A stretch of DNA of 64,000 nucleotides from Rariglobus hedericola (lineage in GTDB: Bacteria > Verrucomicrobiota > Verrucomicrobiia > Opitutales > Opitutaceae). The stretch lies in NCBI RefSeq assembly GCF_007559335.1, contig NZ_VMBG01000001.1:1116001-1180000 (forward strand), given 5' to 3'. Below the pieces are notes generated by a model. The model had not been told where the DNA came from. It searched no databases and worked only from the letters and a program-made list of their open reading frames with translations. This document shows, in pieces, positions 27,603-59,333 of this stretch; position 1 is the first letter of the stretch, and each line of letters begins with the position of its first letter. A program made the position numbers and the translations under genes.

Positions 27603-28142
27603 ATGCCCACCGTCCTGGTTATTTTGCCCGAAGGTTTCGAGGAATTGGAAGCCGTCGCCCCCATTGATGTTTTACGACGCGCCGGAGTCGAAGTGACCGT
27701 GGCCGCTCTGGGCGACAACCTCGCGGTCCGCGGGCGCAACGCCATGACGCTGCTCGCCGACACGACACTGGCCGCGGTGGGCACCCGGCTGTTCGACCTG
27801 CTTTTCCTGCCCGGAGGCCCCGGCGTAAAACTCCTGCGGGCCGATCCTCGCGTGCGCACAACCGTGCTCGCCCACCAATCCGAAGATCGCTGGCTGGCCG
27901 CCATCTGCGCGGCCCCCACCGTGCTGCACGATGCCGGCTTGCTGACCGGTCGCCGCTACACCGCCCATTTCTCGGTGGCCGATGAATTGCCCTCCATACT
28001 CACCGCAGAACGCACCGTTGCCGATGGACGTCTGCTTACATCGCGCGGCGCGGGCACGGCGACGGATTTTGGACTCCTGCTCGTCGAGAAGCTGACGTCC
28101 CCCGAAAAGTCGCGCGAAGTCGCCCAATCCATTTGCGCTTAA
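27603..28142 (+). CDS. DJ-1/PfpI family protein
   Basis: Member of the DJ-1 branch of the class I glutamine amidotransferase-like superfamily, whose members act as glyoxalase/deglycase-type or stress proteins. The 179 residues match the DJ-1/YajL pattern. GFEELEAVAPIDVLRRAGVE contains the conserved Glu16; FLPGGPG follows; the nucleophile elbow is AAICAAPTVL with Cys102; and His122 is in AHFSV. C-terminal TSRGAGTATDFGLLLVEKL is also typical. It stands alone between the divergent HDOD gene and the polysaccharide locus, and a palindromic terminator-like structure follows. Exact substrate cannot be given. Confidence 0.92.
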   Translation: MPTVLVILPEGFEELEAVAPIDVLRRAGVEVTVAALGDNLAVRGRNAMTLLADTTLAAVGTRLFDLLFLPGGPGVKLLRADPRVRTTVLAHQSEDRWLAAICAAPTVLHDAGLLTGRRYTAHFSVADELPSILTAERTVADGRLLTSRGAGTATDFGLLLVEKLTSPEKSREVAQSICA

Positions 28143-28202
28143 TCACCGTATTCTGCCAAAACAAAGGCATTGCCGAACATACTCGCATTTCGTCAATTCA
28201 TG

Positions 28203-28237
28203 CAGCGACTAGGGGTTTAACCCTAGTCGCTGTTTTT
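28203..28237 (+). terminator. Palindromic hairpin with T-tract between the DJ-1 gene and asnB (shares motif with 57926)
   Basis: Perfect 12-base arms CAGCGACTAGGG (28203-28214) and CCCTAGTCGCTG (28221-28232) around GTTTAA, followed by TTTTT. It has the form of an intrinsic terminator for the DJ-1 gene. The core CTAGGGGTTTAACCC (28209-28223) recurs exactly at 57926-57940, where no T-tract follows, so an operator role before asnB is also possible. No convincing promoter boxes were found in the rest of the 28143-28321 gap. Confidence 0.75.
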
Positions 28238-28321
28238 GCACATGGTGCCCACGCATACGCATTCTTCATCGGTTGCTTCCACGGGAAGTGACGGGGCGAA
28301 GCCATTACAATTTCACAAACC

Positions 28322-30214
28322 ATGTGTGGAATAGCAGGTTACATTAACCCAGAGCTAGCACCGGTCCTGCGTGTCGAAGCCGTTGAACGCATGAATGCCG
28401 CCATGCTCCATCGCGGCCCGGATGACGCCGGCGTGGAGTCTTGGGGTGATGCGACCCTCGGCATGCGGCGTCTGGCGATTTTCGACCCGGCGCATGGCCA
28501 CCAACCTATGAGCACGCCGAATGGCCGCTGGCATCTGGTGTTTAACGGAGCCATTTATAATTTCCGGGCACTCCGCGCCGAATTGGCGTCGTCGCACGAT
28601 TTCAAAACCGAGTGCGATACCGAAGTTCTCCTCGCGGCCGTCGCACGCTGGGGCCAAGGCGCCCTGCCCCGTCTCCGCGGCATGTTTGCCTTTGCGGCCT
28701 GGGATTCACTTGAGCGCAAACTGCTGATCGCCCGCGACTCCTTTGGCATCAAGCCGATCTACGTTCACACGAAGCCGGATGGCAGCCTGCTCTTCGCCTC
28801 GGAGCTCAACGCGCTGCTGGCCTCGGGCTGCGTCGCCGGTGACATCGATCCGCAGGCCGTCAGCGACTACCTGTCCTGGCTGTCCGTCCCTGCTCCGCGC
28901 ACGATTTACCAGTCGGTGAAAAGCCTGCAGCCGGGCGAATGCGGCGTGTGGCAAAACGGCCGCCTAACAATCACCGCCTACGACACCGCTCGCTCGCTGT
29001 TAACTCCGCCGGCCGGCTTTACCGCCGCGCGTTCGAAGCAAGAGTTCACCGCCGGTTTGCGCGCCCAACTCGAAGACACGGTGCGCGCACACATCGTCGC
29101 CGATGTGCCGGTCGGGGCGTTCCTCTCCGGCGGACTCGACTCAACCGCACTCGTCGCGTTGATGACCCGGCTCAGCGGCGCACGACTGAAGACCTTCTCG
29201 ATCGGTTTTGAAGACGCCGGTTATTCCGAGGCCGAAGCCGCTGCGAGCAACGCCCGTTACCTCGGCGCGGATCATCACGCTTCAGTGCTCACCGGTGCAC
29301 GCGTCGCGACCGACATCAGCACGCTGATCGCATCCCTCGATCAACCCACGGGTGACGGCATCAACACTTATTACGCAAGTCAGGCCGCTCGTGCCGGAGG
29401 CGTCACCGTAGCCCTTTCCGGCCTCGGCGCCGACGAGCTGTTCGGCGGCTACTCCTCGCTCGGAAACACCTTCCGCCTGGACCGCTGGTTACCCGTATGG
29501 AACGTAGTGCCTGGACCGATACGCAGCGCCCTCCTCACCCGCTGGGATCGTGGCAACACCCGCTCTCGCAAACTGGCCGATACGTTGCGCCACGCGAACT
29601 CACCGGCCTCGCTCGCACTGCTGCAACGCCGGGTATTCGCCGAGTCCACCCGCCGGTCCCTGCTCGCATCCGGCATCGCGTCGGCCTACTCGCCACACGC
29701 AGCTGAGGCCGCGCTCGCCGGTGACTTGCGCGACGCCAGTCTCTTCTCCGTGGCCAGCATGGCAGATGTGCGCGGCTACATGAGCGACGTGCTGTTGCGC
29801 GACAGCGATGTGATGAGCATGCGCCACTCACTCGAGCTCCGCGTGCCCTTCGTCGATCGCCCGTTCGTCAACTGGGTCAGCTGCCAGCCCGCGGCATTTA
29901 AACACACACCTAAGCAACCCAAGTCAGCGCTCGCTGATGCCCTGGCCGACCTGTTGCCGCCCGATTTGCTCACCCGCAAAAAACGCGGCTTCACCCTCCC
30001 CTACGCCGTCTGGATGCGCGGGCCGTTGAAACCGTTTCTCGAAGACACGTTCTCCTCCGCGAGCGTGGGCCGCAGCGGCCTGTTCGACGCACCGGCCGTG
30101 CAGGCCCACTGGCAAAGTTTCCTCGCTGGCAACGACACACTCGAATGGTCGCGCGTGTGGTCGCTGGCGATTCTCGTCGCGTTCATCAACCGGCCACGGC
30201 CTGCTTCCGCATGA
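28322..30214 (+). CDS. asnB: Asparagine synthase (glutamine-hydrolysing)-like amidotransferase
   Basis: Uses glutamine to amidate a carboxylate via an adenylated intermediate. The 630 residues start MCGIAGYINPEL, with Cys2 as the glutaminase nucleophile. RGPDDAG (31-37) and the rest of the class II amidotransferase domain run to about 210. The synthetase domain follows, with the pyrophosphate loop SGGLDS at 269-274 and LSGLGADELFGGY. It opens a 27-gene polysaccharide locus, and its stop overlaps the next start (ATGA). In such loci AsnB-like enzymes are often thought to amidate uronic acids or other glycan carboxylates. That substrate is inference; ordinary asparagine synthesis is the alternative. 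Confidence 0.9.
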   Translation: MCGIAGYINPELAPVLRVEAVERMNAAMLHRGPDDAGVESWGDATLGMRRLAIFDPAHGHQPMSTPNGRWHLVFNGAIYNFRALRAELASSHDFKTECDTEVLLAAVARWGQGALPRLRGMFAFAAWDSLERKLLIARDSFGIKPIYVHTKPDGSLLFASELNALLASGCVAGDIDPQAVSDYLSWLSVPAPRTIYQSVKSLQPGECGVWQNGRLTITAYDTARSLLTPPAGFTAARSKQEFTAGLRAQLEDTVRAHIVADVPVGAFLSGGLDSTALVALMTRLSGARLKTFSIGFEDAGYSEAEAAASNARYLGADHHASVLTGARVATDISTLIASLDQPTGDGINTYYASQAARAGGVTVALSGLGADELFGGYSSLGNTFRLDRWLPVWNVVPGPIRSALLTRWDRGNTRSRKLADTLRHANSPASLALLQRRVFAESTRRSLLASGIASAYSPHAAEAALAGDLRDASLFSVASMADVRGYMSDVLLRDSDVMSMRHSLELRVPFVDRPFVNWVSCQPAAFKHTPKQPKSALADALADLLPPDLLTRKKRGFTLPYAVWMRGPLKPFLEDTFSSASVGRSGLFDAPAVQAHWQSFLAGNDTLEWSRVWSLAILVAFINRPRPASA

Positions 30215-55587: not shown

Positions 55588-57002
55588 GCAAAACATCGGC
55601 CTCCACGTCAGCGCCCTTGGAAAAGGCCGTGTTCATCCATTCGACTGTATTGCTCCTCTGCTCAGCCTGGATCTATGGCGGCAATATTTGGTGGATGCGC
55701 ATCGCACTCAGTCTTTGGACATCACTGGGCGCCGGACTTACACTGCTTGCTTTTTGCCAACGCGGCTCGCGAGGCGAAGCCGCACGACGCAAAATTTGGT
55801 GGCTGACCCCGCTGGCTCTTTTTAGCGGCCTCATTCTGCTCAGCGTATTTAATCCCAGCTTTCGGACGGTCCACATCGATGATGCCGTTTCATATGTGAA
55901 GACCACGGTGCAAAAACCGCATTGGCCCAGCACGATCTCCACTGAGTTAACATTACGTGCCTGGTGGTTTGGAGCCGGAGTCTATTTATCCGCATTCAAC
56001 ATTGTCTGCCTGATTCAGAGTCGTTCGATTTTGAGAAAAATCATGGTCTTGATCAGTGTCAGCACCCTGTTGCTGGCGGTGATGGGCACGCTGCAAAAGC
56101 TATCCGGCGTTGGTTTTTATTTCGGCGCGACCGAGTCACCCAATCCGCGTTTTTTTGCCACCTTCATCTACTATAACCACTGGGGCGCTTTCATGCTGCT
56201 CGGCCTTACGACCGCGATAGGTCTGCTGTTTTACCACGCCCGACGCTACGAAAGTCGTGATCTCTGGCACTCTCCTTTCAGCGCTGCACTCGTCGGGGTC
56301 TTGCTTATCGCCACCAGCGCGCCTGTCAGTGCGTCGCGGGCCAGCACCGTGATTACCGCCCTGGTGTTAGCCATCGGCCTCACTCATGCGCTTTCCCGCA
56401 TCGTCAACTTGCGGCGCGCACGCAGACAGAATCCCTGGCCGCTGTTGTTAACTATCATTACACTGGCGGTCATCACCAGCAGTGCGATCAGCTGGTTGTC
56501 CTATCAAACGCTCACGCAACGTTTCAACGAGACCCAACTGGCGATTGATCAAAATCAATCCGTCTTCGGTGGCCGAGCCGAACTCTATCGCGACACTTGG
56601 AGTTTAGCGAAAGAGAAACCCGTGTTCGGCTGGGGCCTTGATACCTATTCAATCGGGTTTCAGATGATCAGGCCCTACACGGTCAATTTACGTGATCGCT
56701 CGGAGAATATTTTCGCCACCGCGCACAACGACTGGCTCCAGTCCCTCGCCGAAAACGGATTCGCTGGCACCATCCTGCTGATGGCGATGGGGCTTATTCC
56801 ATTGATCATGATCCCGACCCGGCAGTTTTTTCACCCCTTGGTTATCTACCCGCTACTAGGTTGCGCACTGTTGCTGCTTTATGCCTTGGTCGAGTTTCCT
56901 TTCGCGAATGGCGCCGTTATGATCACTTTTTGGACTCTGCTTTTCACCACTGTTGCCTACGCCCGGCTGACCGACACTGCTTCCCGCACCCACCATGAGT
57001 GA
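55584..57002 (+). CDS. O-antigen ligase/polymerase family membrane protein (WaaL/Wzy_C type)
   Basis: Polytopic protein of 472 residues with about ten to twelve helices. The family-defining periplasmic loop contains GRAELYRDTWSLAKEKPVFG and FATAHNDWLQSLAENGFAGT, whose His-Asn pair matches the Wzy_C/O-antigen ligase motif. Members either ligate finished chains to lipid A-core or protein, or polymerise repeat units. Because another polymerase-like protein lies at 49965, this one may be the ligase; that division is inferred. Its end overlaps the next gene by eight bases. Confidence 0.86.
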   Translation: MSKTSASTSAPLEKAVFIHSTVLLLCSAWIYGGNIWWMRIALSLWTSLGAGLTLLAFCQRGSRGEAARRKIWWLTPLALFSGLILLSVFNPSFRTVHIDDAVSYVKTTVQKPHWPSTISTELTLRAWWFGAGVYLSAFNIVCLIQSRSILRKIMVLISVSTLLLAVMGTLQKLSGVGFYFGATESPNPRFFATFIYYNHWGAFMLLGLTTAIGLLFYHARRYESRDLWHSPFSAALVGVLLIATSAPVSASRASTVITALVLAIGLTHALSRIVNLRRARRQNPWPLLLTIITLAVITSSAISWLSYQTLTQRFNETQLAIDQNQSVFGGRAELYRDTWSLAKEKPVFGWGLDTYSIGFQMIRPYTVNLRDRSENIFATAHNDWLQSLAENGFAGTILLMAMGLIPLIMIPTRQFFHPLVIYPLLGCALLLLYALVEFPFANGAVMITFWTLLFTTVAYARLTDTASRTHHE

Positions 57003-57861
57003 GCTTTGCCCTATCTCGATTCTCATTCCCGCCAAAAACGAGATTTCGAATATCCGTGCCTGCATCGAGTCCGCTCGCTTCGCCGACGAAATTGTCGTGG
57101 TCGACTCGAACAGCACGGATAGCACGCAGGAAATTTCTATTTCTCTCGGCGCACGCGTGGTGGATTTCAAATGGAACGGAGCCTTCCCTAAAAAGAAAAA
57201 TTGGGCCTTGGCCAACATAGCGTGGAAACACCCATGGGTATTCATTCTGGATGCAGATGAGCGCATCACTCCAGAGCTCGCCGGCGAACTGCGCGCCATA
57301 GCCACACAGCCGGCGCCTGCATGCGAAGGCTATTACGTAAACCGGCGTTTTTGGTTTCTCGATGGCTGGCTCATGCACTGCGGCTATTATCCGAGTTGGA
57401 ATCTTCGTTTCTTTCGCCACGAACTGGGGCGCTACGAACAATTCACTGGCGTCGGTGACACGCAATCCGGCGACAACGAGGTTCACGAGCATGTCATTCT
57501 AAACGGACGCTCCGGTCATCTTAAATACGAGATGGAGCACTACGCCTTCCCCACGATTTCCATCTGGATCGAAAAACATAATCGCTACTCCAACTGGGAG
57601 GCACGCTTGCTCCGGTCCGAAGAAGGCAGCGCCTCCGCCTCGTCTGCCTCCATCACGCCGGAATTGGCCCGCAAACGCCGCATTAAACACTTCGCCGCCC
57701 GACTCCCCTTCAGACCCACGCTCCGCTTCTTTTATCACTATGTCTGGAGACGCGGCTTTCTGGATGGCTATCGTGGCTACGTATTTTGCCGGCTCATGGC
57801 TTTTTATGAATTCATGAACGTGACCAAAGCCGCCGAACTTCAACGCACGGGCACCAAGTGA
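56995..57861 (+). CDS. Glycosyltransferase family 2, WaaE/KdtX-like
   Basis: The 288 residues match LPS core transferases of the WaaE group. They show PISILIPAKNEISNIRACIE, ADEIVVVDSNSTDSTQEISI, FPKKKNWALANIAWKHPWVF, and the DXD-type ILDADERITPELAGEL. Then come YYVNRRFWFLDGWLMHCGYY and HYAFPTISIWIEKHNRYSNW. Known relatives add a hexose or heptose to lipopolysaccharide inner core. It is the last gene of the 27-gene co-directional run and is followed by a 119-base gap. Confidence 0.9.
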   Translation: MSELCPISILIPAKNEISNIRACIESARFADEIVVVDSNSTDSTQEISISLGARVVDFKWNGAFPKKKNWALANIAWKHPWVFILDADERITPELAGELRAIATQPAPACEGYYVNRRFWFLDGWLMHCGYYPSWNLRFFRHELGRYEQFTGVGDTQSGDNEVHEHVILNGRSGHLKYEMEHYAFPTISIWIEKHNRYSNWEARLLRSEEGSASASSASITPELARKRRIKHFAARLPFRPTLRFFYHYVWRRGFLDGYRGYVFCRLMAFYEFMNVTKAAELQRTGTK

Positions 57862-57925
57862 GTTGAGCGAGAATTTTTTGCATATTACTATCACAAAGTC
57901 CCGGTGAAGTAAGCTGTTTGACGCG

Positions 57926-57941
57926 CTAGGGGTTTAACCCC
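57926..57941. repeat. Palindromic element upstream of the initiating sugar transferase (shared with 28209)
   Basis: The core CTAGGGGTTTAACCCC repeats 15 bases found at 28209-28223. It is symmetrical (GGGGTTTAACCCC, 57929-57941), without a T-tract after it, and lies 40 bases before the gene start. A TTGACG at 57918-57923 could be a -35 box just before it, but no good -10 box is at the right distance. An operator is the best guess. Confidence 0.5.
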
Positions 57942-57980
57942 ATTCGCACGATTGTTTAAAGCGCACGGCTCACGCTCTCA

Positions 57981-59333
57981 ATGCATCAAAATCGCAAAGC
58001 ATCCCTCGCACTTGTCCTGCTTGATTTCGTGATGCTGCTGCTGGCCTTCAATGCCGCAGGTTGGATGCGCGGCATCATCAGCCCGGCGGAATGGATCATC
58101 CTGCCGTTGTGCGTGCCCCTACTGCTGGTGGTTGCCAGCATCTACCTCATCGATGGCTACAAGGCTCAGACTGACATGATCAGTCTGGACTACACCAGTG
58201 AACACATCATCGCGTTGCTCGCTGCCATGGTGGGCACGTTGCTGTTCACCTTCGTATTTCTGACCGGCGGCTATCCTTTGCAGCAAAGTCGCGGTGTCAT
58301 CCTCCTCAGTTTCCTGATCTACATTCCGCTTTCGCTAGGCTACCGGCGCGCGGTGTATTCGGCCGGGCGCGCCTTGCGCCGCGAACAGTCGCTCGTGTTT
58401 GTCGGCGATGCTGAAACCGGCGCAGTTTTTGAACAGGAATGCCTTCGCATGGGCTGCAAGCAGCCCATCGTTCATGCATCGCCCACCCAAGAAAATGAGG
58501 CCCCCGACAACTCTCAGATCGATACGGTGCTCGGCAAAATTGAGCGCGGCGAAATCGAGGTTGAAGCCGTCATTCTGCGTGAGAACAACCGCGATCTCAA
58601 TTCACACATCTCACAACGGCTGGTCGAACTCTACTTCCGCGGAGTTCCCACCTATACGCTCGAACTCTTTCATCAGGTTTATTGGCGCAAAATCCCCCTC
58701 TATCGCCTGAACCAGACCTGGCTTTTCCAAGAAGGCTTCAAGATCGCGCGCGAACCGGTGTTTGAACGTCTCAAACGCCTCAGCGACATCTTTCTTTCAT
58801 TGTTCGCGCTCACCATCGGTGCCCCGTTGTTTTTGGGCATCGCGCTCGCCATCTGGATCGATGACCGCGGTCCCGTGCTGTTTTGCCAGACACGCATTGG
58901 AAAAAATCGCGTGCCCTTCCGGCTTTTCAAGTTCCGCACGATGCGTCCCAACGACGGCAAAGACGTCTACACTAAAGTCGGCGACATGCGCATCACCCGC
59001 ATCGGGAAATTCCTGCGCTCCAGCCGGCTCGATGAACTGCCCCAGATGCTCAACGTGCTCTTCGGTGACATGAGCCTCATCGGTCCCCGCGCCGAATGGG
59101 ATAAGCTGGTCGACAAATACGAAACCCAAATCCCCTGCTACCACTTCCGCCATTTGGTGAAACCGGGCATCACGGGGTGGGCGCAGGTCAACTATCCCTA
59201 CGGCGCCAATCTGGACGACACGCTGCGTAAACTGGAATACGACCTATATTACATCCGGCATTTTTCCTTCCTCATCGATGCGGCCATCGTCCTGAAGACG
59301 ATTCACATCATGCTGTTTGGCAAAGGCCGTTGA
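57981..59333 (+). CDS. Undecaprenyl-phosphate sugar phosphotransferase (polyprenyl PGT, WcaJ-like)
   Basis: Starts glycan synthesis by moving a sugar-1-phosphate onto the lipid carrier. The 450 residues show four N-terminal hydrophobic helices (about 1-110), a nucleotide-binding-like middle region (SLVFVGDAETGAVF), and a membrane-inserted helix near 270-290 (IFLSLFALTIGAPLFLGIAL). The catalytic bacterial sugar transferase domain carries FRLFKFRTMRPN, ITRIGKFLRSSRLDELPQML and GDMSLIGPRAEW. The C-terminal WAQVNYPYGANLDDTLRKLE is also typical. It stands apart from the main locus behind a 119-base gap with a shared palindrome, so its expression may be set separately. The enzyme choice of sugar is unknown. 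Confidence 0.94.
   Translation: MHQNRKASLALVLLDFVMLLLAFNAAGWMRGIISPAEWIILPLCVPLLLVVASIYLIDGYKAQTDMISLDYTSEHIIALLAAMVGTLLFTFVFLTGGYPLQQSRGVILLSFLIYIPLSLGYRRAVYSAGRALRREQSLVFVGDAETGAVFEQECLRMGCKQPIVHASPTQENEAPDNSQIDTVLGKIERGEIEVEAVILRENNRDLNSHISQRLVELYFRGVPTYTLELFHQVYWRKIPLYRLNQTWLFQEGFKIAREPVFERLKRLSDIFLSLFALTIGAPLFLGIALAIWIDDRGPVLFCQTRIGKNRVPFRLFKFRTMRPNDGKDVYTKVGDMRITRIGKFLRSSRLDELPQMLNVLFGDMSLIGPRAEWDKLVDKYETQIPCYHFRHLVKPGITGWAQVNYPYGANLDDTLRKLEYDLYYIRHFSFLIDAAIVLKTIHIMLFGKGR

Follow-up and report, generated by a model that had tools for sequence, protein, structure and literature searches.

The window, i.e. the whole 64-kb stretch of Rariglobus hedericola DNA analysed here, harbours a polysaccharide gene run headed by an asnB-type amidotransferase gene (28322-30214, + strand; Pfam Asn_synthase, 270.6 bits; NCBIfam TIGR01536, 413.6 bits, above the cut-off of 267.1). 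A DJ-1/PfpI-family gene (27603-28142, + strand; Pfam PF01965, 134.6 bits) lies 5' of it, and behind asnB follow glycosyltransferases, an ABC exporter pair, methyl-, acetyl- and acyltransferases and a Wzy_C-domain gene, along with several frames that gave no family match. At the other end, a family 2 glycosyltransferase gene (56995-57861, + strand; Pfam PF00535, 58.4 bits) is followed by the gene for an initiating sugar transferase (Bac_transf, 57981-59333, + strand; Pfam PF02397, 202.9 bits). Genomes and loci are labelled Gnnn and Lnnn, respectively, with G000 denoting the genome of the window; the names JUMPstart-like, attC-like, LiaG-like and autotransporter-like were coined in this analysis.

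The 15 bases CTAGGGGTTTAACCC are found exactly at 28209-28223, before asnB, and at 57926-57940, before the initiating sugar transferase, both on the + strand. The two copies share their orientation and are 29.7 kb apart with glycan genes between them. That both are palindromic and situated in intergenic gaps, as the preliminary description had it, is correct, albeit the palindromes differ in extent. The first (site 1, putative operator CTAGGGGTTTAACCCTAG, 28209-28226, no strand assigned) is located in the gap 28143-28321, 3' of the PfpI gene; from the end of its 18-bp core to asnB there are 95 nt. It is the centre of a perfect 12-bp inverted repeat, CAGCGACTAGGG-GTTTAA-CCCTAGTCGCTG (28203-28232), followed by five T residues (28233-28237). 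This terminator-like form with its 12-bp stem, 6-base loop and T5 (28203-28237, + strand) has a predicted RNA fold of -26.3 kcal/mol (z -7.6, and none of 200 shuffles as good), and it was absent from the list returned by a simple terminator scan. The second copy (site 2, CTAGGGGTTTAACCCCAT, 57926-57943, no strand assigned) is located in the gap 57862-57980, 37 nt before the Bac_transf gene. Its palindrome consists of GGGG-TTTAA-CCCC only, no T-run follows, and its surroundings fold no better than shuffled sequence (z -0.87, 35 of 200 shuffles as good). A scan for sigma-70 promoters gave no matches around site 1 and three around site 2, none of them at site 2 itself.

The shared 15-mer is not significant on its own, since the window contains 15 repeated direct 15-mers compared with 6.05 (sd 3.2) under a first-order Markov model; the caution that such a repeat can arise by chance was thus well placed. 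With up to three mismatches, GGGGTTTAACCCC matches the window 21 times against 12.0 expected, a number reached by 4 of 100 shuffles. The literal motif was discarded as a genome-wide repeat, as TAGGGGTTTAACCCC with up to two mismatches occurs only four times in the 4.15-Mb genome, and as a common repeat, as exact AGGGGTTTAACCCC occurs only three times in 56 genomes. Only the consensus CTAGGGTNNNNACCCTAG, from which site 1 is one base away, brings out a signal.

This consensus was derived from sites in the 13 genomes of the genus. There, CTAGGGN6CCCTAG with at most one mismatch gave 66 sites, 20 of them exact, and the reversed pattern gave 148, so that site numbers alone exhibit no excess (66 vs 148 in the genus, 8 vs 13 in this genome). 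The neighbouring genes were then classified by eye from open frames, with PEP-CTERM-like C-termini read in the same way. By this classification 7 sites precede asnB, 11 lie between leuS and a FecR-domain gene (in 11 of 13 genomes), 4 precede a LiaG-like gene and 10 precede genes with a PEP-CTERM-like end. These four classes hold 32 of the 66 sites, and CTAGGGTNNNNACCCTAG was taken from them. The remaining 34 form a mixed group, in which 16 overlap an open frame by crude frame calls and 18 do not, and a few of the 34 also precede secreted-looking genes (L144, L156, L217). Among representatives of the classes, a FecR gene matched Pfam with 27.2 bits (cut-off 24), a LiaG-like gene matched NCBIfam only weakly (17.8 bits, against a cut-off of 285), and a PEP-CTERM-like gene (L142) had no match in NCBIfam or Pfam.

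Searched exactly in 141 related genomes, CTAGGGTNNNNACCCTAG yielded 17 sites compared with two for the reversed control. Thirteen of these are from the genus itself, four from other genera of the family and none from the 51 genomes of other families. All except one fall into the four classes (asnB 4, leuS/FecR 6, with the G090 site assigned by a leuS-like end alone, LiaG-like 2, PEP-CTERM-like 4), and the seventeenth, in G056, adjoins an lpxI-like gene. One palindrome thus precedes several functionally related genes, as would be expected for the operator of a dimeric regulator. In the genome of the window, at most two mismatches to the consensus palindrome gave eight sites (reversed, 13), seven of which precede surface or glycan genes: a FecR gene, a LiaG-like gene, asnB, three PEP-CTERM-like genes and one autotransporter-like gene (L235; judged by eye and extending past the end of the locus). 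The eighth is inside a frame. It had been proposed that enrichment of such sites before glycan or surface-protein genes in a wider search would count as support, and this is what was found. Control of all PEP-CTERM genes by the palindrome was ruled out, as three carry a site and the genome has 66 PEP-CTERM matches. No regulator protein was found for the palindrome and no candidate gene could be named.

Site 1 could instead be nothing more than the intrinsic terminator of the PfpI gene, with site 2 a coincidence. As in such terminators, a GC-rich stem of 12 bp is followed by T5, the perfect stem stands 3' of the gene and folds strongly, the repeated 15-mer is at chance level, and a score like that of site 2 (see below) is expected 3.5-8.6 times by chance in the whole genome. 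The comparison within the genus speaks against it, since stem and T-run are not kept. The core CTAGGG-N6-CCCTAG behind PfpI is conserved in G010, G004, G001, G003, G005 and G006, with loop, outer stem and T-run varying. The long stem with T-run is confined to G000, G010, G004 and an insertion-split copy in G009, and both are lost in G001, G003, G005 and G006, which retain the core. In G002 and G012 the PfpI gene does not adjoin asnB, yet a diverged palindrome is found at the same distance before asnB. Moreover, the palindrome also precedes unrelated surface genes, and its spacing to the leader element described below is fixed. Judged by these alignments, the palindrome core goes with asnB and not with PfpI, and we regard a mere PfpI terminator as quite unlikely. 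The earlier suggestion that the first copy is also usable as a terminator stands for this species and its nearest relatives, where the terminator form can be used as an addition to the conserved part. Two relatives differ at this position: G011 has another hairpin between PfpI and asnB, and in G009 (L041 / L064, G009:C142) an insertion with inverted ends interrupts the palindrome between the same genes.

Much of the genus, and other genera too, have the palindrome core before asnB, as part of a layout common to many asnB leaders: an RTTGC box, 32-35 nt, the palindrome, 50-58 nt, a hairpin with GACGGGGCGAAGC, and asnB. In the window the box is ATTGC (28169-28173, + strand), which lies 35 nt 5' of the palindrome and may be a -35-like element. 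Of 23 aligned asnB leaders, 20 have the box 32-35 nt 5' of the palindrome, compared with 1.3% in shuffles, albeit this range was chosen post hoc from the alignment itself. The position of the box would place the transcription start near the first base of the palindrome; a -10 box within the palindrome, the centre of which often reads TATA in the gene direction, was considered as an alternative placement. With conserved core, fixed spacing, upstream box and gene classes taken together, and with the palindrome found also where PfpI is missing (G002, G012), site 1 is probably a control site, read here as an operator.

Alternatively, the palindrome could act not as a DNA operator but in the RNA, where a stem-loop at the start of the transcript would control stability or translation. 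In line with this, most LiaG-like and PEP-CTERM-like genes carry it 0-15 nt ahead of their first open start, and some arm changes in the 23 leaders are paired, e.g. G3-C16 in three of them. On the other hand, there are several unpaired changes besides four positions that are invariant in either arm. In 10 of 11 FecR genes, moreover, the palindrome is 46-89 nt away from the start, and about 95 nt separate it from asnB, which is too far to cover a ribosome site. An RNA stem-loop is accordingly considered unlikely, and the operator is retained as the preferred reading.

For a comparison with both window sites, 24 sites belonging to the FecR, LiaG-like and PEP classes were used to build a matrix, with the asnB sites and site 2 itself left out. 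In the window it ranks site 1 first (23.6-24.0 at 28209) and site 2 second (16.7-17.7 on the better strand at 57926), followed by a third position at 7.9-9.6; chance expectation in 64 kb is 0.001-0.002 for the score of site 1 and 0.05-0.13 for that of site 2. That this matrix places the two reported sites first and second supports an operator. Every training site outscores site 2, in part because the 24 were preselected (at most one core mismatch, gene class), which makes weaker sites score low. A palindrome before asnB in another genome (L310) is one base off site 2. Site 2 itself is absent from the gaps upstream of the transferase in 10 relatives of the genus (the G005 contig ends within the gene), and among the loci compared the only other match in a relative to GGGGTTTAACCCC with up to two mismatches is GGCGTTGAACCCC in L029. 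Neither an RTTGC box nor a leader element accompanies site 2, the only copy of the element in a scan of the whole window being the one at 28284. The idea that one regulator acts at both ends of the locus is therefore likely for site 1, with its core before asnB in the genus and beyond, and, with moderate support, possible for site 2, where the matrix rank and the L310 variant stand against the lack of conservation, box and element. Site 2 probably arose recently as a weak copy of the site 1 operator.

The shared orientation of the copies, their 29.7-kb separation and the glycan genes that they flank could also be taken to indicate the direct-repeat ends of a mobile polysaccharide island. In G004, G001 and G011, however, PfpI and the transferase gene are likewise about 25-33 kb apart on one strand with no palindrome at the transferase, and site 1 belongs to a layout found in other genera, which makes such an island highly improbable.

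Between palindrome and asnB the leader carries a hairpin (28272-28292, + strand; arms 28272-28280 and 28284-28292) and the element GGAAGTGACGGGGCGAAGC (28284-28302, + strand), which is ops/JUMPstart-like in its position. A stem of at least five pairs ending at GAC is present in 70 of 102 distinct copies of the element, compared with 12% when the upstream bases are shuffled; among copies from other phyla it is present in 1 of 10. With at most one mismatch the element was found in 57 of 141 relatives (reversed control, 0). An exact scan of a collection of 84,980 species, which may omit records close to the window's own genome, gave 112 stretches. Among the 80 of 112 listed, 70 have Verrucomicrobia titles (mostly Opitutae) and 10 do not. 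In a set of 80 distinct copies (again 70 and 10), from which repeats with identical 60 nt upstream were dropped, the next gene is asnB in 32, all Verrucomicrobia, and other glycan genes follow in further ones, so the element occurs, like ops/JUMPstart, in leaders of long polysaccharide operons. The palindrome with at most two mismatches lies 50-56 nt before the element in 14 of these 32 asnB leaders and in none of the other 48; 18 of the 32 lack it at that threshold. With at most three mismatches and 51-58 nt, it was found in 9 of 11 asnB leaders of the genus and 6 of 13 from other genera, an overlapping set, and three element copies not before asnB (L086, L180, L184) have a three-mismatch palindrome at 61-115 nt.

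The JUMPstart family of Rfam gave no match at gathering score in the window and eight further loci, no Rfam match to the element was obtained at E up to 5 in 28100-28400, and the sole match in the Rfam scans of loci was a tRNA in L102. Several observations concern element copies elsewhere. One genome (G017:C1) carries 17 copies of a variant, GGACGTGACGGGGCGAAGC. At other glycan loci (L099, L103, L092, L101, L104) the gene directly 5' of the element resembles a GbsR/CudC-like regulator, and two such genes gave 29-31 bits in profile searches, far under the cut-off of 218. The stretch G000:C1:1486000-1513500 holds a second Bac_transf gene, about 19 kb from a leader element that has an EpsI-like gene and nucleotidyltransferases 3' of it.

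A divergent NusG-domain protein is encoded in all 13 genomes of the genus, and in 11 of them a canonical NusG was also found (not in G002 and G004). In this genome the gene of the divergent protein is located elsewhere than the leader element. Among NCBIfam families it matches UpxY best (77.3 bits, under the cut-off of 100 for NF033644), followed by RfaH (41.7) and NusG (21.2), and among solved chains a NusG alone was matched (5e-5). Strong orthologues are present in 66 of 141 relatives and some match in 94. With presence set at at least 167 bits, 52 genomes have both element and paralog, 14 the paralog only, 5 the element only (G019, G089, G094, G100 and G129, the last with a short partial paralog match scored as absent) and 70 neither. 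Thus 52 of the 66 paralog-bearing genomes have the element, compared with 5 of the other 75 (p 1e-19; p 7e-8 within the family and p 1e-4 by genus outside the own genus), although these Fisher tests are optimistic because the genomes share ancestry and independence is overstated. The paralog occurs in the same genomes as the element, as a specialised NusG paralog should, and this co-occurrence argues for antitermination: the element probably keeps RNA polymerase running through the long cluster. In G106, a one-mismatch leader element and the paralog gene lie about 1 kb apart on opposite strands (G106:C1:2179866, 2180838).

Taken together, we consider it likely that site 1 is the operator of a putative dimeric regulator at the start of the asnB operon, that the ops/JUMPstart-like element loads the UpxY-like NusG paralog, and that site 2 is a weak recent copy. 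In this model the regulator would bind site 1 at the transcription start of the asnB-led polysaccharide operon, the order here being RTTGC box, palindrome, a leader of about 57 nt ending in the hairpin with GACGGGGCGAAGC, and asnB. It would set when the operon starts and would also control the FecR-domain, LiaG-like and some PEP-CTERM-like genes that bear the palindrome. The stand-alone paralog would then join RNA polymerase at the element and prevent an early stop in the run of about 29 kb, and PfpI transcripts may end at the palindrome where it has been lengthened in this species to a perfect hairpin with T5. Conservation, spacing and target classes are direct observations, from which we infer the regulator, the sign of its action and the transcription start with its promoter. 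The co-distribution is likewise observed, and antitermination, like a role for site 2, is what the model predicts. Counted against it were the failure to find a regulator, the missing excess of sites, the asnB leaders devoid of the palindrome (18 of 32), the other hairpin in G011, the 14 paralog-only and 5 element-only genomes, the possibility that the palindrome is an RNA hairpin, the weakness and poor conservation of site 2, and the inflation of the Fisher tests by related genomes. The model offers a testable two-step control, operator and then antitermination element, for long Opitutae polysaccharide operons. Through a single candidate operator it connects such an operon with surface proteins, and for a UpxY-like NusG paralog it names a defined candidate site of loading.

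In the genome of the window GGAAGTGACGGGGCGAAGC has eight exact copies, and only 2 of 11 copies with at most one mismatch precede glycan operons, i.e. the one in the window and one at a second glycan locus. Five stretches of this genome (L091, L093, L094, L095 and L096; G000: C1 start, C2 end, C4 end, C5 start and C1:1092000-1099000) contain 43 attC-like repeats, mostly of 83-85 nt. Eight of the 11 copies are located between two same-strand attC-like repeats, as in integron cassettes, four of them within units about 270-290 bp long, and one further copy adjoins such a repeat. Five other element loci had no attC-like repeats. A tentative extension, which we regard as possible but hold below even chances, is that Opitutaceae and near relatives own an ops-type antitermination system, in which the hairpin with GACGGGGCGAAGC loads the UpxY-like paralog, and that integrons have captured it as small non-coding cassettes that let transcription cross long arrays, with the palindrome regulator setting the polysaccharide start separately. 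In any case, the copies among attC-like repeats invite the question of how transcription reaches distant cassettes of long integron arrays.

Literature searches, restricted to open-access papers, returned no prior report of the palindrome or the element, and the element core, the 15-mer and one written-out form of the palindrome were not found in the paper texts searched. A DNA motif shared by PEP-CTERM upstream regions in exopolysaccharide-making bacteria, the PrsK/PrsR sigma-54 motif, is presented in passages of Haft 2006 (PMC1569441), which place it only in Proteobacteria, describe it as ending in a -24/-12 sigma-54 box, and say that further PEP-CTERM motifs remain to be found. The motif described here is instead an 18-bp palindrome with few PEP-CTERM targets, i.e. 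the three genes with a site noted above.

Background on JUMPstart, ops, RfaH and UpxY is given in sections of PMC2864571, PMC7593976 and PMC7819879. According to the portions of PMC7819879 that deal with Bacteroides, UpxY proteins serve capsule operons and act in 5' leaders, upstream of their own upxY gene. UpxY is the best NCBIfam match of the paralog described here, albeit below the cut-off; the paralog gene, in contrast, is located elsewhere in the genome. A passage of the paper on RfaH evolution (PMC7593976) calls the mode of recruitment unknown for those specialised NusG paralogs that are encoded within their own operons. Among the closest parallels is ops/JUMPstart with RfaH in enterobacteria, as outlined in parts of these papers. 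The element sequence is different here and has no counterpart in Rfam, the paralog scores only 41.7 bits as RfaH, most element copies are found among attC-like repeats, and recruitment of the paralog is a prediction. In both cases, a short conserved element with a hairpin is located in the leaders of long polysaccharide operons, several unlinked copies of it are present in the genome, and the specialised NusG paralog is a stand-alone protein.
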